This document shows, in pieces, positions 43,470 to 52,580 of a stretch of 53,490 bases of DNA (position 1 is the first letter of the stretch; every line of letters begins with the position of its first letter). The DNA lies in the NCBI RefSeq assembly GCF_003697815.1, contig NZ_RDQG01000008.1, positions 1-53,490 on the forward strand, in the 5' to 3' direction. The stretch comes from Halalkalicoccus subterraneus (GTDB lineage: Archaea > Halobacteriota > Halobacteria > Halobacteriales > Halalkalicoccaceae). Both the position numbers and the translations under genes were made by a program. The notes under the pieces were generated by a model. It was not told where the DNA came from and did not search any database. It saw only the letters and a program-made list of their open reading frames with translations.

Positions 43470-44465
43470 TCAGTCGTCCGTCCTACCGCCGTCCGTCGCG
43501 GCCGTGCGAGCCTCCTGGCGGCGCTGGCGCATGTAGCGCGCCCGGAGGACGTTACCGTACATCGAGAGGAAGAGGCCGATGAAGAGGACGAGGACCCCGA
43601 TGTTGATGCCGACGGTACGGAGGAGACTCCCCTCGCCGAAGACGATCGTCTGACTGATGGGGTAGCCGCCGTAGCTCATGCTCGCCAGCAGGATGCTCAC
43701 GACCCCGATGATCGTGAGCACGCCCATGACGTTGGTCACCCAGCCCCAACTGGGTTTCAGCCGGAGGCGCTCGATGCCGGTCACCGACTCGGACTCGGCG
43801 TCGCCGTGATACTCGGGCGTGTCGGATTTCGGGAGAAAGGCCTTCATCTCGACGGGGTAGAACGCCGGATGGAAGCCGTGTTCGAAGGTGTGAAACATCA
43901 CTCCCATCATCATGATCACGCCCAGCGCGCCGTGGAACGCGACGAACGCGATGACGACCGACTGTGAGTTGTAGAAGTCGATCAGCATCGTCTTCTGCCA
44001 GATGAGGAGCCCCGAAACCATCAACAACAGCAGTTCGACGGCGAAGATGGCGATCACACCCTTGCCCACGTAGGAGAGCAGCGGGATCTCGTCGGCCGAA
44101 TAGCCCGCGAACTGTCGGGCGTTGGGGTGGCGTTCGTCGGCCATGCCGGCCGCGAACTTCATGTCCTGGACGAACGCGGCGACGTCGCCGGGGGTCGGCA
44201 ACACTGCGGTGAGGCTGACCGAACCGCCCGCGCGCAGGAGCATGTAGAAGACCCAGAAGGCCGTCAGGAAGATCAGCGCGAAGCCCGCGACCCGGTGGAC
44301 CGCGAGCACGCCCGTGTTGCCGCCCATGAGTTCGACGAGCCACCACAGTTCGTCGTTGAACGCGACGGCGTAACCCGTGAAGAAGAGCAGGAACACCGTC
44401 AGCGCGAGCAGCGAGTGAAACATCGTCGTCACGCGGGAGAACTTCCCGTGGTCGAGGGAGGTCAT
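43470..44465 (-). CDS. Cytochrome b subunit of a formate dehydrogenase-type complex
   Basis: 331 residues, about seven hydrophobic segments. SRVTTMFHSLLALTVFLLFFTGY, LAVHRVAGFALIFLTAFWVFY and FVAFHGALGVIMMMGVMFHTFEH supply the membrane histidines expected for two b hemes (FdnI/HybB-like fold). It should pass electrons from the Fe-S subunit to menaquinone. Two extra C-terminal helices (~residues 255-310) extend beyond the 4-helix core. Its ATG overlaps the preceding gene as ATGA, so it is translated together with the Fe-S and catalytic subunits. Confidence 0.85.
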   Translation of the reverse strand: MTSLDHGKFSRVTTMFHSLLALTVFLLFFTGYAVAFNDELWWLVELMGGNTGVLAVHRVAGFALIFLTAFWVFYMLLRAGGSVSLTAVLPTPGDVAAFVQDMKFAAGMADERHPNARQFAGYSADEIPLLSYVGKGVIAIFAVELLLLMVSGLLIWQKTMLIDFYNSQSVVIAFVAFHGALGVIMMMGVMFHTFEHGFHPAFYPVEMKAFLPKSDTPEYHGDAESESVTGIERLRLKPSWGWVTNVMGVLTIIGVVSILLASMSYGGYPISQTIVFGEGSLLRTVGINIGVLVLFIGLFLSMYGNVLRARYMRQRRQEARTAATDGGRTDD

Positions 44466-44938
44466 TCGGCGTCACCCCCACAGGTGGTGTCGCTCGCGGA
44501 GTCGGATCGCTCGCCCCCGTCCGTCGCGACCGCGTCGCTGTTTCGGCGCGGGGCTCCGTGCGGGCGCATGCGCGCGGCGAGCCGGCGGAAGGCGATCCAG
44601 TGCATGAAGATCATCACGAGGATGAACACGCCCATCAGCACGTCCGCGAAGTGGATCAGCGTGATCAGCCAGTCCAGGGCCGGCTTCGTGTTGCCCTGGA
44701 TCCACCCCGCGCCGACGCCGCCGCCCTCGACGGTCGGGCGCACGCGCTGGAGCGCCTCGAACTGGATCGCCCGGACGCCGATCAGCCAGACCGATCCGAC
44801 CGCGAGCGCCAGCGAGAGGACGGCGCTGATCCAGAAGGCCGCCCGATCCGAGAGCCCGCGGTTCCCGCCGTCGGACTCCGTACGCTCGTCGGCAACGTGA
44901 TCGGAGTCGCCGCCGGTCTCGGGGTCCGTGTCGCTCAT
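44462..44938 (-). CDS. Small membrane subunit between Fe-S and cytochrome b genes
   Basis: 158 residues from the ATG at 44938. Acidic N-terminus (1-30), then two hydrophobic segments: FWISAVLSLALAVGSVWLIG (~residues 36-55) and the longer LDWLITLIHFADVLMGVFIL (~92-111) continuing to VMIFMHWIAFRRL. Two histidines (LIHFAD, FMHWIAF) inside the helices could be heme ligands. ATGA overlaps on both sides show it is part of the operon. No family recognised. Confidence 0.8.
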   Translation of the reverse strand: MSDTDPETGGDSDHVADERTESDGGNRGLSDRAAFWISAVLSLALAVGSVWLIGVRAIQFEALQRVRPTVEGGGVGAGWIQGNTKPALDWLITLIHFADVLMGVFILVMIFMHWIAFRRLAARMRPHGAPRRNSDAVATDGGERSDSASDTTCGGDAE

Positions 44939-45609
44939 CTGTCGAACATCCCCGTGTCGTCGCCGAAGATGATCTCCATGGCGGTGTCGTTGAAGAACGC
45001 ACCGCTGTCGCGTTTCTCCAACTCGTCCGCGATCTCGCCGGAGGAACCCACGAGGATGGCGTCGGTCGCACACTCCTCGGCGCAGGCGGGTCCCTTCCCG
45101 ACGTCCTGGCGCTCCTCACAGCCCGTACACTTGTCCATCGTCCCCCCCGATCCGACGACCGCGGTCAGCCCCTCGTTCGATTCGGGGAACTGGGGCGCGC
45201 CGAACGGACAGGCCGAGAGACAGTACTGACAGCCGATACAGAGGTCGTCGACGACCTCGACGAAGCCGTTGTCCTTCTTCTGGAGGGCGTTGGTCGGACA
45301 GACCGACACGCAGGGGGCGTTCTCGCAGTGATAACACTGCATCGGGAGGCTCGTCTCGCCGGGGCTCATCCCCTCCTCGATCGCGCTGACCTGCTGACCG
45401 TTGAACCCGCTCTCGCCCTCGACGCCCTCGAGCATCGTCGTGATGTCGATACGCTGGTCGTCGACCGGGACGTCCCAGGTACGCTTGCAGGCGACCACGC
45501 AGCCGCCACAGTCGATACACGCCTCGACGTCGGGGAAGATCCGCATCCCCTCGCCGGTACTCATGACGCCCTGACCGAGTCGCTCTTGGGTCGATTCGTT
45601 CGCTGACAT
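44935..45609 (-). CDS. Formate dehydrogenase Fe-S subunit (four-cluster ferredoxin type)
   Basis: 224 residues. CIDCGGCVVACKRTW (~31-45), CYHCENAPCVSVCPTNAL (~92-109), CIGCQYCLSACPFGAP (~123-138) and CTGCEERQ...CAEECATDAI (~160-185) provide the four [4Fe-4S] sites of an FdnH/DmsB-like electron-transfer subunit. No Tat signal of its own; probably co-exported with the catalytic subunit. A 1-bp gap separates it from the catalytic gene and its stop overlaps the next ATG as ATGA. Confidence 0.92.
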   Translation of the reverse strand: MSANESTQERLGQGVMSTGEGMRIFPDVEACIDCGGCVVACKRTWDVPVDDQRIDITTMLEGVEGESGFNGQQVSAIEEGMSPGETSLPMQCYHCENAPCVSVCPTNALQKKDNGFVEVVDDLCIGCQYCLSACPFGAPQFPESNEGLTAVVGSGGTMDKCTGCEERQDVGKGPACAEECATDAILVGSSGEIADELEKRDSGAFFNDTAMEIIFGDDTGMFDR

Positions 45610-45610
45610 T

Positions 45611-48600
45611 CTAGTCGTCCCCCGTCTGTGGTTGCATGCTCTGGTTTCTGACGTCCCACTCGTAGGAGTCGCCGAGTCCGGCCTCCTCCTGTGGGTAGTC
45701 GATGACCTCCATGTTCAGTTCCTCGATGCGCTGTTCGGTCGCCTTCTCGACCCGGACGAGTCCCGCCTTGGTCTCCTGCATCTGCGTCTCGGCGTCGAAC
45801 CCACTGGAGGTGACGAAGTTCGCGCTGTCGCCGATCGCGAGCGGCTTCGATCCCTCGGGGTACTTGTCGCTCATGTTCTGCCCGTGGGCGATCCCGCCCC
45901 AGTGATACGGCAGGAAGACCTCGTTACCGCCCTGTGGGCGGTAGGTGACCTTCGCTTTCACGAGAATCGAGCCCTTGTCGGCGTCGGCGGAGGTGATGAT
46001 GACGTGGTCCTCGCCGCCGACCAGATCGAGGTCCTCGGCCATGTCGGGGTGGATCTCCGCGTACATGTGGGGCTGGAGGTCGGCCGTATAGGGGTTGTTC
46101 CGCGTCTCGGCGCCCCCGCCCTGATGTTCGACCTGTCGCCCCGATGTGAGGATCGTGTCGATCCCCTGGTCGTAGGCGCGCTGGGTCGCCTCCTGCTGGG
46201 TCGCGGCGTTGTTCTGATCGAGCCGGAAGAAGTTGGTCTGCTGGCCGTTTGCGGGCCACTGCTCGGCCAGATCGGGCCGCGGGCTCTGGATCGGTTCGCG
46301 GTGTTTCGGGACCGTATCGATGAAGTTCCAGACGACCGCCCGTGCCCGGCCGCGTCCGGTCGGCGGGTCAGGTTGGGCGTTGTCGTACTGCTCGTAGAAC
46401 GCCAAGTTGTGGTCGTGGTCCCGCTGTTCGTTCAGCGCGGCCGCACAGTCGTAGATCGAGACGTCCTCGCGCAGCGCGTATTCCATCGGAATCGTCAACG
46501 AGGAGGCATCGGCCGGGTCCTCCGGCAGCGTCGTCGTGAAGCCCGGATACTGCGGGACACCGATGACCTCGCCGTCGAACCAATCGGGCTGATAGGACTC
46601 GCGAAGCATGTCCAGGCCCGCCTCGCCCTCCTGCTCGTAGGTCTCGGCGAGCGGGTACTCCTTGTCGACGCCCGTCGCCTCCCACTCCTCGGGCGTCGGG
46701 GCGTCGATACCCCAGTTCGCGCGGAAGTCGTGACCACCCTCGGCCGGATGGACGTCGTCGCGCCAGATGATCGGCGTCCCGGGATGCTCGTCGCCCCAAC
46801 AGGGCCACGGCAGCCCCCAGAACTCGCCGCTGACCGGCAGTCCCTCGCTGTCGGCCCGCAGCGTCTCGGTGCTGAAGGCGTCGTCGTGTTCCTTCTGGCG
46901 CTGGAGGCGTTCGGGACTCTGCTGGTAGCCGACCGTGCGCACCCCGAGGTTGATCTCCCGCAGCACGTCCTCGTAGGTGCTCTTACCGTTGTAGAGTTCG
47001 GGACCGCTCCCCCAGTCGAAGTGCTCGCCGAAGCCGAAGCGTCCGGCCAGTTCCTGCATGATCTGCAGGTCGGGCTTGGAGGCGTGGGCCGGCGAGGCGA
47101 CGGGTTCGCTCCACTGGACGGAGCGATGGGAGTTGGTCACCGAGCGGTGGTGCTCGTACTGGCTCGATACCGGCAGCAACAGGACGTTGTCGGCGTCGGC
47201 GTCCTCAAGCGTGCCGGCGACGGCGGGGAAGAGGTCGACGACCACCAGCAGGTCGAGCGCCTCCATCGCCTTCTTCATCTTGTCCATCTCGGTGATGGAG
47301 TTGGCCGAGTGGCCCCAGAAGAAGGCCATCTTCAACGGGTCGGGCTGGTAGAGGGTCGACTCGTGGAGCCGGTCCTCCTGCTGGAGGGCGGCCTCGTACC
47401 AGCGGGCGACCGACAGCCCGTCCTGGAGCATCATCGTCCGCGGGTCGATCTGGCGTTGAGAGCCGCCGTCCTCGGAGCTGCCCTGATCGGCGCCGCCGTC
47501 CCCACCCGACCCCCCTTGGGCAGCGGGATCGCCCGTCTGCGAGTCGGCCTCGGTTGGGGACTGGGAGTTCGGACCCGCGCCGGTGTCCTCGGCCTGCGAG
47601 ACGTCCTCGACGGCGTCGCTCTGTTCGGTCTCCGCCGATTGGAGTTCGCTTGCGGCGGGCGGGCCGCCACCGCCCGCGGAGAGCTGCTGCCAGATGTCGT
47701 CAGGCATCGTCGCGAAACGGTCGTGAAGGTCCCAGAAATCCGTCGAGCCGCTCGTCCACGGGCTCCGGTTCCAGACGTTCGTCCAGTGGACCCACGAGCC
47801 GGCCGCCGACACGGAGTAGTAGCCCGGTAGGATGGTGCTGTCGACGCCCAGATCGGTCGCACCCTGGACGTTGGCGTGTCCACGCATCACCTGCAGGCCG
47901 CCGCCGCTGCGGGCGGCGCTGCCCGAGGCAAGCGAGTGCAGCGCGTACGAGCGGATGTTCTGGGTACCGTTGTTGTGCTGGGTGCCGCCCATCGCCCACT
48001 CGATCTGGATGTTGGGCTTGTTCTCGATGATCAGGTCGCCGAGCTCTTGGAGCTGCTCGACGTCGATCCAGGTGATGTCGGCGACCGTCTCGAGGTCGTA
48101 CTGTTCGAGTTCGGCCTCGGCGTCGGGCCAGCCGTTGACCCGTTCGGAGAGCATCTCGTCGTCGAGTTCGCCCTGCTGCTCGAGGTAGTTCATCAGCCCC
48201 ATCAGCAGCGCCACGTCGGTACCCGGACGCATCCGGTAGTAGTTGTCGGCGTGCGAGGAGGTCTTCGTGTATCGGGGGTCGATCGAGACGACGGTCCCGT
48301 CCCTCGCTTGCCCCTCGAGGATGTGCTGCATCGCGATCGGGTGGGACTCGGCGGGGTTCTGCCCGCAGATGATGAGCAGATCGAAATTCCGGTAGTCGTT
48401 GATCGTGTTGGTCATCGCCCCGTAGCCCCACGTGTTCGAAAGGCCCGTGACGGTCGGGGAGTGACAGATCCGCGCCTGGTGATCGCAGTTGTTCGTCCCC
48501 ATGAAGGCCGAGAGCTTCCGGAAGGCGTAGGCCTCCTCGTTTGCGTGGTGGGCGCTTCCCATCATCATGACGCTCTCGGGGGTGTACTCCTCGATGATCT

Positions 48601-49009
48601 CGGCGTACTTCTCTTCGATGATGTCGTAGGCCTCGCTCCACGAGATCGTCTCCCACCCGCCGTCGACCCGGTGCATCGGCCGTTTCAACCGACGATCCGA
48701 GTGCTCGGTCTCGAGGATCCCCGCGCCCTTCGAACAGAGCGAACCGTTGTTGATCGGGTTCTCGTGCCACGGCTCCATACCGACGAAGGAATCACCCTCG
48801 GTGACGCCGCGAAAGCCACAGCCGACCGCACAGTAGTTACAGATCGTCTTGGTCATCTCGCCGTCCGGGGTGGTACCTTCGTCCTCGTCGTCGTTCTGGG
48901 CGAGGGTCTGCCCCGCCGCGCCGCCGCCGAGCGCGACCGCGCCCGCGAGCGCGCTCGCCTTCAGGAACGACCGCCGGTCGAGATCCAGAGAGACGGGCTC
49001 CGCACTCAT
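45611..49009 (-). CDS. Formate dehydrogenase catalytic subunit (Mo/W-bis-MGD, Tat-exported)
   Basis: 1132 residues. Tat signal DRRSFLKASALAGAVALGGG (residues 11-30). [4Fe-4S] ligands C57, C60, C64 (CNYCAVGC) and C92. The metal site is DHQARICHSPTVTG: Cys182 replaces selenocysteine, followed by His183, the FDH signature. C-terminal molybdopterin-binding domain with HGQNMSDKYPEG and VTSSGFD. Oxidises formate to CO2 outside the membrane and passes electrons to the Fe-S and cytochrome b subunits. Odd: an acidic Ser/Gly/Gln-rich insertion (~443-516) in the middle, and overall length ~300 above a typical FDH core. It follows a 24-codon ORF with an ATGA overlap. Confidence 0.93.
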   Translation of the reverse strand: MSAEPVSLDLDRRSFLKASALAGAVALGGGAAGQTLAQNDDEDEGTTPDGEMTKTICNYCAVGCGFRGVTEGDSFVGMEPWHENPINNGSLCSKGAGILETEHSDRRLKRPMHRVDGGWETISWSEAYDIIEEKYAEIIEEYTPESVMMMGSAHHANEEAYAFRKLSAFMGTNNCDHQARICHSPTVTGLSNTWGYGAMTNTINDYRNFDLLIICGQNPAESHPIAMQHILEGQARDGTVVSIDPRYTKTSSHADNYYRMRPGTDVALLMGLMNYLEQQGELDDEMLSERVNGWPDAEAELEQYDLETVADITWIDVEQLQELGDLIIENKPNIQIEWAMGGTQHNNGTQNIRSYALHSLASGSAARSGGGLQVMRGHANVQGATDLGVDSTILPGYYSVSAAGSWVHWTNVWNRSPWTSGSTDFWDLHDRFATMPDDIWQQLSAGGGGPPAASELQSAETEQSDAVEDVSQAEDTGAGPNSQSPTEADSQTGDPAAQGGSGGDGGADQGSSEDGGSQRQIDPRTMMLQDGLSVARWYEAALQQEDRLHESTLYQPDPLKMAFFWGHSANSITEMDKMKKAMEALDLLVVVDLFPAVAGTLEDADADNVLLLPVSSQYEHHRSVTNSHRSVQWSEPVASPAHASKPDLQIMQELAGRFGFGEHFDWGSGPELYNGKSTYEDVLREINLGVRTVGYQQSPERLQRQKEHDDAFSTETLRADSEGLPVSGEFWGLPWPCWGDEHPGTPIIWRDDVHPAEGGHDFRANWGIDAPTPEEWEATGVDKEYPLAETYEQEGEAGLDMLRESYQPDWFDGEVIGVPQYPGFTTTLPEDPADASSLTIPMEYALREDVSIYDCAAALNEQRDHDHNLAFYEQYDNAQPDPPTGRGRARAVVWNFIDTVPKHREPIQSPRPDLAEQWPANGQQTNFFRLDQNNAATQQEATQRAYDQGIDTILTSGRQVEHQGGGAETRNNPYTADLQPHMYAEIHPDMAEDLDLVGGEDHVIITSADADKGSILVKAKVTYRPQGGNEVFLPYHWGGIAHGQNMSDKYPEGSKPLAIGDSANFVTSSGFDAETQMQETKAGLVRVEKATEQRIEELNMEVIDYPQEEAGLGDSYEWDVRNQSMQPQTGDD

Positions 49010-49080
49010 CCGCTCGCCTCACCCCGTGGCGAACGGCTCACGGCCCGCTCGGTCTGATAGATCGTGATAGTTCTACGCAT
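49006..49080 (-). CDS. 24-residue leaderless ORF upstream of the formate dehydrogenase gene
   Basis: ATG at 49080, TGA at 49008-49006, sharing the ATGA overlap with the FDH catalytic gene. Begins MRRTITIYQTERAVSR and is basic (4-5 Arg) with no Cys. The FDH gene is in another frame, so this is not an N-terminal extension. A TTAATTG promoter box is centred 28 bp before the ATG, so this ORF, not the FDH start, is the first codon of the mRNA. It probably drives translational coupling into the FDH gene or is a small protein in its own right. Confidence 0.6.
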   Translation of the reverse strand: MRRTITIYQTERAVSRSPRGEASG

Positions 49081-49102
49081 GCTACAGTCCTACTGAACAG
49101 AC

Positions 49103-49112
49103 GACAATTAAC
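49103..49112 (-). promoter_or_regulatory. Promoter box of the formate dehydrogenase operon
   Basis: Minus-strand GTTAATTGTC, centre 28 bp before the ATG at 49080. It lies within an inverted repeat ACAATTAACGTTGT, possibly an operator. Confidence 0.65.
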
Positions 49113-49198
49113 GTTGTGCTTTCTGTGAAAAAACAGGCCAGGGCGTCGTGTTTCGTGCGGGCGCAAGACCTTTCCGCACCCCTCACTACCCACCGCCA

Positions 49199-51334
49199 AT
49201 GAAGACCGGTGCGTTCGTCTGCTCGTGTGCTGGTACCTGCGAGGTCGATCTCGAGGACGCCCGCGAGGGGATCGAGGGGGTCGACGTCGCCGCCAGCTCC
49301 GAGCTGCTCTGTGGGGAGAAAAAGGGGCTGCCGGCGATGGAGCAGGTCATCGAGGAATACGAACTCGACCAGCTTCTCGTGACCTGTCCCGAACCGGGAG
49401 TCCAGGATAAACTCGGCGGCGTCGCGGAGGACCACGGCCTCCATCCCGAGGCGGTCTCTTTCGTCGACCAGCGCGAGGCTGCGGGCTGGGTCCATCCCGA
49501 GGAAGAGGCGACCGACAAGACCTCGAGAATGGTCAACGCCCGTCGGGCGGGCCTCGAGGAGGAGGCGATCGCGCGCTCGATCTCGCGCGAAGCCGGCGAG
49601 CGCGTCGCGGTCGTCGGCGACGCGGAGGCCGCCGCCACTCTCTCGGAAGACGCCGAGGTGACGCTGATCGCCGACGGAAAGGAGTTCGCCGGCGTCGACG
49701 GGTTGGAGGACGTGACCATCGAGCGCGGGCGGGTCACGGGCGTCGCCGGCGAGTTCGGCGACTTCTCGGTCGGGCTCGAAGCCCGCGTGAGCGACGAGTG
49801 CATCTCGTGTATGAAGTGCGTCCACGAGGGTCCCGATGGACTGGTTACACGCCGGCCGGTCGACATCGCGCCCGATGCACCCGAGGGCGAATGGACCGAC
49901 GTCTGCCCGACCGACGCCATTGAGATGGACGGCGTCAAAAGGGATTTGGAGGTCGACCAGGTGGTCCACCCGGGCGGTGATTCGAAGGCACGCGGCGGGC
50001 GTATCGGCTACTACACCGACGCGGGGCCGGCGACGATGGCCGCCGCAGAGAGCCTTCTCGGAGGGATCGAAAAGCCCGACTTCCTCGACTTCGAGATGGA
50101 CGTCTGCGCCTCCGGCGAGTCGAACCAGGAGGGCTGTCGGGCCTGCTACGACGCCTGCCCGCACGATGCGGTCGCGAAACCCCGCCCCGACGAGGTCGAC
50201 ATCGACCCGATCGCCTGTCAGAACTGCGGGGCCTGCACCAGCGCCTGCCCGACCGGCGCGGTGAGCCTGCGCGAACCGTCGAACGAGCGCATCGCCCGCG
50301 AGGTCGAGGCGCTGCTCGGAACCGGCGCCGACCAGGGCGGCTGGTTGTCGAGAGCGTCCGGCATCGAGAAACCCATAATCGCCTTCACCTGCGGCGAGCG
50401 CGCCGACGACGCCCTGAGCGAGTTCGGTAAACGCGCCGCTTCCGGGGAGGAAATCGAGTACCCGCCGATCCTGCCCGTCTCGGTGAACTGTGCCGACACC
50501 GTCGGCGAATCCCACGTCGCCCACGCGCTGGCCTGCGGCGCGGCCGGCGTCGCGATACTGGGCTGTGGCTGTGACTGTCGTCACTCGGGGGCCGACCCGA
50601 AAGAGGAACTCGTCGAGCGGCTCAACCAAGCCACGCGGGACATGGGGCTCGGCGAACGGGTGGGCTTCTTCGCGCCCGAAGCCGGCGAGCCCGGAGGATT
50701 CGTCGAGTCGCTGTCGGCGTTCGAGGAATCGTTAGAGCCCTCGCCGGTCCCGGAGGGCGACCACCGCGCCGACGGAACGTTGCTCCACAGCGACCACGAA
50801 AATCAGGAGTTCTATAACCACGGCTGGACCCTCGAGAGCGTCCGGGCGATCCTCGAACACGTCGAACCCGATCGGGAGGTGATCCGCGGCCTTTCGGACT
50901 TCGGCCGGATGGAGGTCTCGGATGCCTGTACGCTGACCCCCACCTGCTCGAACCTCTGTCCGACCGACGCGATCAGGAGGACCGAGTGGGGTCTGGAGTT
51001 CAACCACGAGAAATGCGTCAACTGCGGGCTCTGTGAGGAGGGGTGTCCCGAGAGCGCGATCACGATGAGGGATGGGTTAGACCTCTCGCTGCTGCCGGAG
51101 AACCGCGCCGAGGAAACCGAGGAAGGCGAGGATCCCGCCTGGACGCAGACGTTCGAGGGCGAGATGCTCGAGTGTGCCCGGTGTGGCGACCCGTTCACGA
51201 GCGAGCGCTCGGCCGCGAAGATCGAGGAGGAGGTCGGCGATCTGGTTGCCGGACTGGCCCCGAGCGCCGAGGAGAGCGTCTTCAACTACTGCCCGGACTG
51301 CCGGGCGTACCTGCTCTACGACCGGGGGAACTGA
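49199..51334 (+). CDS. HdrA-like/MvhD-like multi-cluster Fe-S protein lacking the flavin domain
   Basis: 711 residues, cytoplasmic. In order: an HdrA-like N-terminus with CSCAGTC (8-14), LLCGEK, CPEPG and WVHPEEEATDKTSRMVNA (~96-113); a ~60-residue remnant VAVVGDAEAAATL where HdrA has its FAD domain; a [4Fe-4S] motif CISCMKC...CPTDA (~200-240); a 2[4Fe-4S] ferredoxin CRACYDACPHDA and CQNCGACTSACPTGA (~315-355); an MvhD-like domain IIAFTCGER...YPPILPVSVNC...ILGCGCDCRHSG (~394-465); a second ferredoxin CTLTPTCSNLCP, CVNCGLCEEGCP (~577-622); and a final zinc ribbon CARCG...CPDC (~658-700). Divergent from FDH and joined to a TorD-like chaperone. No known function; see findings. Confidence 0.85.
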   Translation: MKTGAFVCSCAGTCEVDLEDAREGIEGVDVAASSELLCGEKKGLPAMEQVIEEYELDQLLVTCPEPGVQDKLGGVAEDHGLHPEAVSFVDQREAAGWVHPEEEATDKTSRMVNARRAGLEEEAIARSISREAGERVAVVGDAEAAATLSEDAEVTLIADGKEFAGVDGLEDVTIERGRVTGVAGEFGDFSVGLEARVSDECISCMKCVHEGPDGLVTRRPVDIAPDAPEGEWTDVCPTDAIEMDGVKRDLEVDQVVHPGGDSKARGGRIGYYTDAGPATMAAAESLLGGIEKPDFLDFEMDVCASGESNQEGCRACYDACPHDAVAKPRPDEVDIDPIACQNCGACTSACPTGAVSLREPSNERIAREVEALLGTGADQGGWLSRASGIEKPIIAFTCGERADDALSEFGKRAASGEEIEYPPILPVSVNCADTVGESHVAHALACGAAGVAILGCGCDCRHSGADPKEELVERLNQATRDMGLGERVGFFAPEAGEPGGFVESLSAFEESLEPSPVPEGDHRADGTLLHSDHENQEFYNHGWTLESVRAILEHVEPDREVIRGLSDFGRMEVSDACTLTPTCSNLCPTDAIRRTEWGLEFNHEKCVNCGLCEEGCPESAITMRDGLDLSLLPENRAEETEEGEDPAWTQTFEGEMLECARCGDPFTSERSAAKIEEEVGDLVAGLAPSAEESVFNYCPDCRAYLLYDRGN

Positions 51335-51335
51335 G

Positions 51336-51959
51336 ATGAGCGACGAGGAGATCTACGCCGCCCGACTCGAACTGGTCGACTTCCTGATCGAGGCGCTGTG
51401 GGACGCGCCGAGCGAGGAGTTCGTCGGAACCCTGCTGTCGGGCGAGATCCGAACCCCCGAGAGCGTCGACGAGGACCTCGATACGGGCTTCGAGGAGCTG
51501 CGGACCTTCGTCGAGGAAAACGAGGGGCGCGACGTAGCGGCGGTCCAGCGGGAGTTGAACCGCGAGTACACCCGCGTGTTCGTTGGCCCCCGACCCCCGG
51601 TGATGGCCCACGAGAGCTACTACCGCGAGGACATGGACTTCTTGGGGACTGGCAAGGCCGAGGTCGAGGCGAGTTACGGCGCCGCGGGCTGGACCCCATC
51701 CGAGGACTACCCCGAGGAGGGCGACTTCGTCGCCGTCGAACTCGCCTTTCTCAGACATTTAATCGAGCGCCAGCGCAGGGGCGCCGAGGAGGCGTTCGGC
51801 TACGAGCGGGTCTTCGTCGAGGAACACATGACCCACTGGATCGACGACTGCGCGGACGACATCATCGAGTACGCCGACGGCGCGTTCTACGAGGCGGTCG
51901 GTCACCTCCTCGCGGGCGTCGTCGAGTTCGAGGCCGAACTCGCCGGCCAGATGGCCTGA
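51336..51959 (+). CDS. TorD/DmsD/NarJ-type molybdoenzyme chaperone
   Basis: 207 residues, all-helical. EYTRVFVGPRPPVMAHESYY (~residues 70-89), with the E-Y-x-R-[LV]F-x-G and P...ES[VY]Y pattern of the family, and FLRHLIERQRRG plus FVEEHMTHWIDDCADDI. Such chaperones hold the apo-catalytic subunit and its Tat signal until the Mo/W cofactor is inserted. The obvious client is the Tat-exported formate dehydrogenase encoded 2.3 kb away. Its ATG is 1 bp after the stop of the HdrA/MvhD-like gene, so the two are co-translated. Confidence 0.88.
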   Translation: MSDEEIYAARLELVDFLIEALWDAPSEEFVGTLLSGEIRTPESVDEDLDTGFEELRTFVEENEGRDVAAVQRELNREYTRVFVGPRPPVMAHESYYREDMDFLGTGKAEVEASYGAAGWTPSEDYPEEGDFVAVELAFLRHLIERQRRGAEEAFGYERVFVEEHMTHWIDDCADDIIEYADGAFYEAVGHLLAGVVEFEAELAGQMA

Positions 51960-51965
51960 AGGCAC

Positions 51966-51976
51966 AACGTTTTTGC
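51966..51976 (+). promoter_or_regulatory. Promoter box of the 86-aa membrane gene
   Basis: AACGTTTTTGC ~28 bp before the ATG at 52000. Confidence 0.5.
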
Positions 51977-51999
51977 GCGAGACACGCCCTGAACGAAAT

Positions 52000-52260
52000 A
52001 TGGCGCTCAAGACCGCGCTCGAGCACAACCCCGTGCTCACGGTCGCGTTCCTGCTCTTCGGCGGGTGGCTCGCGATCACGACGCTGAACGTCGCCTCGAG
52101 CATGGGACCCGTGATGGGTGCCGACTGGATCGGTCACTCGGGGCCCGGTGGAGTCGTGGGACTGGCCGTGATGATCGCCCTCGGGGTCCTGCTGGTCTAC
52201 GTCTACGCCGAACTCGCCGAATCGGACCCCGCACCCGATAGCTTCCCGCCCGAACGCTGA
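52000..52260 (+). CDS. Small two-helix membrane protein, 86 aa
   Basis: 86 residues with two hydrophobic segments: LTVAFLLFGGWLAITTLNVA (~13-32) and VGLAVMIALGVLLVYVYAEL (~52-71), plus GPVMGADWIGHSGPGG between them. Its stop overlaps the next ATG as TGATG. No family recognised; may belong to the formate dehydrogenase gene set, but its own promoter makes that uncertain. Confidence 0.75.
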   Translation: MALKTALEHNPVLTVAFLLFGGWLAITTLNVASSMGPVMGADWIGHSGPGGVVGLAVMIALGVLLVYVYAELAESDPAPDSFPPER

Positions 52261-52580
52261 TGGCCGGAACCAGCGAGCCGATCGAGATCGAACCGAGCGA
52301 GCGCTTTCTCGCGGCCGCCGGCGAGTGGGGAGAGCGCCGAATGCTCGACGACGAGGAGGCGATCCGCGCGAAGGCAGAACAGGCGCTCTTGGAGATCGAA
52401 CACCTCGTGTCGGGTGCCACCGAAGTCGAATTCGACGTCGAGGACGGAGTCGTGCGGTACGAACCGAGCGAGGAACTGGCGACGTTCCTCGACGAACAGG
52501 CGGCTCTCGCCGGAATCGAACGCGGACTGGTCCTCGAACTGTACGTGAACCTCTTCTCGCGGGTCTTCCTCGAGGAGTAG
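52260..52580 (+). CDS. Hypothetical helical protein, 106 aa
   Basis: 106 residues, acidic, mostly helical, no Cys or membrane segment: EIEPSERFLAAAGEWGERRM, then DDEEAIRAKAEQALLEIEHL, a short beta hairpin EVEFDVEDGVVRYEP, and a C-terminal helix LVLELYVNLFSRVFLEE. Overlaps the upstream gene as TGATG, so co-translated. Unknown function. Confidence 0.75.
   Translation: MAGTSEPIEIEPSERFLAAAGEWGERRMLDDEEAIRAKAEQALLEIEHLVSGATEVEFDVEDGVVRYEPSEELATFLDEQAALAGIERGLVLELYVNLFSRVFLEE

Follow-up and report, generated by a model that had tools for sequence, protein, structure and literature searches.

The fdh locus and its upstream interval

The window analysed here is a stretch of 53,490 nucleotides from Halalkalicoccus subterraneus (contig NZ_RDQG01000008.1), and the genes and features under discussion are collected in Table 1. 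The operon of interest lies on the minus strand and is headed by a gene that we call fdh. Among NCBIfam models its product is nearest to formate dehydrogenase alpha, though the score falls below the model cut-off (417 vs 666 bits). The protein possesses a long low-complexity, acidic, Ser/Gly-rich insert in its molybdopterin domain (window positions 47420-47680, approximately residues 445-530), and the homologues of other families align only on the flanks of this insert. A divergent operon on the plus strand (49199-52580) encodes a large Fe-S protein with an FlpD domain, a TorD/NarJ-type chaperone, and two small unassigned proteins, which are likely maturation or electron transfer partners.

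Immediately upstream of fdh one finds a short ORF that consists of the ATG at 49080, 23 further sense codons, and a TGA (49008-49006). The fdh start codon (49009-49007) shares bases with this TGA, giving the sequence ATGA, and the two are read in different frames. A preliminary description of this DNA had pointed to a 24-codon ORF joined to fdh by ATGA and out of frame with it, preceded by a TTAATTG box 28 nt from its ATG; inspection of the sequence bears out both the ORF (49080-49006) and the box (49111-49105, centred at 49108). Its mention of two further ATGA overlaps within the operon is also correct (44938-44935 and 44465-44462), with the qualification that the junction between fdh and fdhB itself is of another kind, the fdhB start following the fdh stop after a 1-nt gap. 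The ORF should not be taken for an in-frame extension of fdh, since its frame is a different one and that of fdh closes 12 nt upstream.

Table 1. Positions of the fdh operon and of the features upstream of it, in window coordinates
Feature	Position	Strand	Remarks
Likely BRE (ACAACG)	49112..49117	-	Genus-conserved, upstream of the TATA box; A/T peak near -34
TATA box (TTAATTG)	49105..49111	-	Centre 28 nt from the upstream ATG; matches the A/T peak at -28
Upstream ORF, putatively leaderless	49006..49080	-	24 codons plus TGA; peptide MRRTITIYQTERAVSRSPRGEASG
Possible hairpin with SD-like motif in loop	49010..49036	-	Arms 49036-49028 and 49018-49010; uncertain
SD-like GGTGA inside the upstream ORF	49019..49023	-	9 nt before the fdh ATG
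ATGA stop/start overlap of upstream ORF and fdh	49006..49009	-	Seen in the sequence; ATGA/GTGA in 56/93 homologues
Formate-dehydrogenase-like molybdopterin oxidoreductase (fdh)	45611..49009	-	1132 aa, Tat signal
4Fe-4S subunit (FdhB-like)	44935..45609	-	Starts 1 nt past the fdh stop (TAG A ATG)
Membrane subunit candidate	44462..44938	-	ATGA overlap with fdhB
Cytochrome b561-type subunit	43470..44465	-	ATGA overlap with the preceding gene

Conservation of the coupled frame

An upstream ORF was counted as coupled if it started with ATG, comprised at least 12 codons, remained open to the fdh start, and ended in ATGA or GTGA; gene starts in the other genomes were assigned by rule, and the 12-codon limit excludes shorter candidates with the same junction (e.g., MIQQ and MWGESK). 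All seven available Halalkalicoccus genomes, that is, the source and the six congeners searched, possess an out-of-frame ORF of exactly 24 codons ending in ATGA, with a TATA box approximately 28 nt upstream of it. These ORFs differ pairwise at about 44% of their nucleotides. Their coupled frame is free of stops throughout, whereas stops interrupt the +1 frame of every genome and the +2 frame of five. As the congeners are related, their agreement should not be read as seven independent tests; the closest named record with the fdh gene is that of H. paucihalophilus (93%), which is congener G004.

Across the order, 56 of 93 distinct fdh upstream regions carry a coupled ORF, compared with 9 and 11 in the other two frames and 11.0 ± 2.7 in shuffled sequences. 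After dereplication the ORF is found in 36 of 66 regions (control frames, 7 and 9; shuffled, 7.6 ± 2.5), an enrichment of roughly fivefold over the control frames, though the genomes of the order are related, and the counts are therefore non-independent to a degree that dereplication and frame controls lessen but do not abolish. Six families are positive (f1, 7/7; f4, 13/18; f5, 10/19; f6, 3/3; f7, 3/3; f8, 11/15), and two are nearly or entirely without the ORF (f13, 0/9; f17, 1/9), which indicates that fdh can be expressed in its absence. Eight of ten further named records also have it, and the genera represented among such records include Natronococcus, Halobiforma, Haloterrigena, Natrinema, Natrialba, and Halorubrum. 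In families other than that of the window, the ORFs are mostly 16 to 25 codons long and encode unrelated peptides, and the overlap is retained whether fdh begins with ATGAGY, ATGACG, or GTGAGC. The preliminary description had named a closed interval in homologues as one observation that would speak against it; the frame is open in all members of the genus and enriched across families.

The base rate of such arrangements was estimated from 800 kb of one congener, in which 108 predicted genes combine an NTGA start with 130 nt or more of free upstream sequence. Nineteen of these are preceded by an ORF in the coupled frame, compared with 8 and 15 in the other frames. This enrichment is modest; coupled ORFs are therefore not a general property of haloarchaeal gene starts, and the signal at fdh is specific. 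Taken with the control frames and the shuffled sequences, the base rate rules out an open frame arising by chance.

Two leaders of family f4, L124 and L129, may contain two-step junctions. In L129, which has the same leader as L024, the first ORF ends in TAATG and is followed by a two-codon ATGGTATGA that ends at the fdh start. Near-palindromes such as ACGCGTG...CACGCGT lie downstream of the inferred start and ahead of fdh in four leaders (L044, L094, L140, and L141).

Peptide, promoter, and leader structure

The preliminary description had offered, as one option, that the ORF encodes a small subunit of the dehydrogenase. It heads the operon and occurs in every congener, as one would expect of a functional small protein. 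For the seven Halalkalicoccus ORFs, however, the dN/dS ratio (pN/pS, Nei-Gojobori) is 1.03 (codon bootstrap, 0.87-1.24), and the amino acid sequence shows no sign of purifying selection. The wrong frames of the same ORFs give 0.99 and 1.08, whereas fdh codons 2-20 of the same genomes give 0.046; the peptide is thus not what is being conserved. It differs in every genome, has no match in Pfam, is in other families an unrelated sequence, mostly of 16 to 25 codons, and carries a net positive charge, which is unlike typical haloarchaeal proteins. We regard a small protein of this kind, including a small subunit, as extremely improbable, the subunit reading having been discarded on the dN/dS value and the unconserved peptide. 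The arginine content that had been remarked upon is real, but it is no more than base composition predicts (99 Arg observed vs 100.8 expected in 36 homologous peptides) and can be dismissed as a signal. The same 36 peptides contain moderately more Thr, Val, and Ile than expected, an excess that may come from shared ancestry. Judged from these comparisons, it is the linkage that is conserved, while the peptide sequence is not.

Aligning the upstream regions on the ATG of the small ORF gives A/T peaks near -34 and -28, as expected of a BRE and TATA box, and the peaks fall at the same positions in 350 reference genes of a congener aligned on their start codons. When the ORF-bearing genomes are instead aligned on the fdh ATG no such peak appears, and A/T content there is low. 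From the position of the promoter we infer that transcription begins at or beside ATG 49080. In family f13, which lacks the coupled ORF, it is the fdh ATG that has a TATA-like box roughly 30 nt upstream.

Within the genus, conservation of the leader is highest in a CTATCACGG-like motif at window positions 49063-49071 (columns 10-18 of alignment A1), 10-18 nt past the inferred start, in which CAC is invariant. It could serve as an operator or as an early-elongation signal.

Haloarchaea also have a route of initiation on leadered transcripts that is independent of Shine–Dalgarno (SD) motifs, by which fdh might initiate unaided. The small ORF would then be an unused by-product, and fdh would be read from its own start codon, either on a leadered transcript or on one begun at a second transcription start that escaped detection. 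The families without the ORF, and the box before fdh in f13, are consistent with this, as is the existence of leadered transcripts in haloarchaea (Babski et al. 2016; PMC4983044). Such a by-product should not, however, show a frame-specific enrichment of about fivefold; ORF-bearing genomes have no promoter signal at leaderless distance before the fdh ATG, and an out-of-frame AUG at the 5' terminus is expected to capture ribosomes. We consider an idle ORF improbable.

An SD-like 4-mer is present between -20 and -3 of fdh in 26 of the 36 ORF-bearing homologues, compared with 17.6 ± 2.8 in shuffled sequences, an excess that fits the coupled reading set out below. A different possibility is that the leader is a conditional switch, akin to an attenuator or riboswitch, in which translation speed, the nascent peptide, or a ligand gates the fdh start and a hairpin sequesters the SD motif until the passage of a ribosome. 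Regulation is to be expected for a gene such as fdh; the last 35 nt before it fold better than shuffled sequences within the genus (mean z -1.8), the SD motif sits in a loop in several species, and the excess of Thr, Val, and Ile codons could be read in the same direction. However, the gain in stability does not extend to the order (mean z about -0.2), and the whole leader is no more stable than its shuffles. The hairpin catches the eye in three species, but its helices occupy different alignment columns and its covariation is that of shuffled sequences (254 of 500 reach the score); the structure just before fdh should therefore be treated as uncertain at best, and we set it aside. Neither a conserved covarying RNA structure nor an Rfam match, by which a riboswitch or structured leader is recognized, was found in the leader, and the ORF peptides contain neither the amino acid runs nor the conserved arrest peptide of a leader-peptide attenuator. 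A switch is, on this evidence, unlikely.

Probable termination-reinitiation at fdh and related systems

The reading that we prefer, and hold to be probable, is that a leaderless ORF occupies the interval and supplies fdh with ribosomes by termination-reinitiation. Transcription would start at or next to ATG 49080. Using the leaderless mode of initiation customary in haloarchaea, a ribosome would begin at the 5'-terminal AUG, translate 24 codons of arbitrary sequence, and stop at the TGA overlapping with the fdh start codon. Having terminated there, it would reinitiate on fdh, perhaps aided by the internal GGTGA. What selection would maintain is the open frame with its start and its overlap, and not the peptide. 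Because selection on the peptide is not detectable, the small-subunit idea fails and translational coupling, the other option of the preliminary description, is favoured; the kept frame and a promoter spaced for the small ORF and not for fdh also argue for it. Both the translation of the ORF and the dependence of fdh on it are deduced from these sequence features.

The separate steps have precedents in Haloferax volcanii. Of its protein-coding transcripts, 72% are leaderless (Babski et al. 2016; PMC4983044). All nine overlapping gene pairs tested in this organism were strictly coupled, and SD motifs within the upstream gene often aided reinitiation (Huber et al. 2019; PMC6728339), while SD motifs had no role in driving initiation at 5'-UTRs (PMC3986360). 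The fdh junction has the overlapping stop and start codons of such a termination-reinitiation pair, and it shares with the H. volcanii pairs the ATGA overlap, an SD-like motif inside the upstream ORF, and a haloarchaeal host. It differs in that the upstream ORF, 24 codons long, encodes a leader peptide without conservation and is not a genuine gene, and in that coupling is predicted.

The closest match is provided by the leaderless small ORFs of mycobacteria (Shell et al. 2015; PMC4633059), for which reason the arrangement at fdh is not categorically new. In both, a short unannotated ORF places its TGA over the downstream start, here as there in the form RTGA, and the linkage is kept while the peptide is not. 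The present case is archaeal, has a BRE/TATA promoter with a leaderless start predicted from its position, and concerns one gene family traced over several families of an order. Two other sets of upstream ORFs are less similar. Those of H. volcanii (PMC4983044) are also haloarchaeal small ORFs (15-31 aa) before normal genes; they were sought only in leaders of 150-250 nt and read as small proteins of low pI, and, unlike at fdh, neither ATGA coupling nor conservation is described in the available part of that report. In Escherichia coli (Beck et al. 2016; PMC4965119), a 5'-terminal AUG likewise opens a short ORF able to influence the downstream gene, but these are bacterial leadered mRNAs with an SD-driven start of their own, and the abstract reports no conserved stop/start overlap.

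Our search of the open-access literature turned up no earlier account of archaeal leader ORFs that are conserved and coupled by ATGA. The fdh leader would represent, in archaea, a conserved instance of natural selection preserving both the translation of a short reading frame and the precise point at which it meets an enzyme gene, with no regard for the peptide. If this is true, expression will be misjudged wherever haloarchaeal annotations or promoter fusions leave such ORFs out, and the translation of leadered haloarchaeal genes without SD initiation can be tested directly on natural, comparable leaders.

It is conceivable, though we hold it with some doubt, that leaderless, sequence-free leader ORFs joined by ATGA are a recurrent haloarchaeal means of controlling selected genes, including those of the molybdenum enzymes Fdh and NasA, with output hanging on leaderless initiation and reinitiation and tunable by either. 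In a comparison of two congeners, 11 orthologous gene pairs had starts that could be compared; two of the pairs have a coupled ORF in both genomes, compared with none in the control frames. These two, nasA and a phosphoglycerate dehydrogenase-like gene, suggest a class, albeit on small numbers.

The gene nasA encodes the assimilatory nitrate reductase (NCBIfam NF041323, above cut-off), and in six Halalkalicoccus genomes (L182-L187; the G000 copy is at G000:C17:31904) a coupled ORF ends in ATGA at its start. This ORF has 18 codons in five of the genomes and 23 in the sixth, and its dN/dS is 0.96 with a wide interval. We found no published transcription start for the nasA gene of H. mediterranei in the literature. 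Candidate nasA-coupled ORFs occur in other families too. The phosphoglycerate dehydrogenase-like gene (L151, approximately 14111 on the plus strand) is preceded by an ATGA-coupled ORF of 14 codons, MTQGLTPTRGSSLA, and congener G003 has a counterpart of the same length, MTQALTSTGGTSRT.
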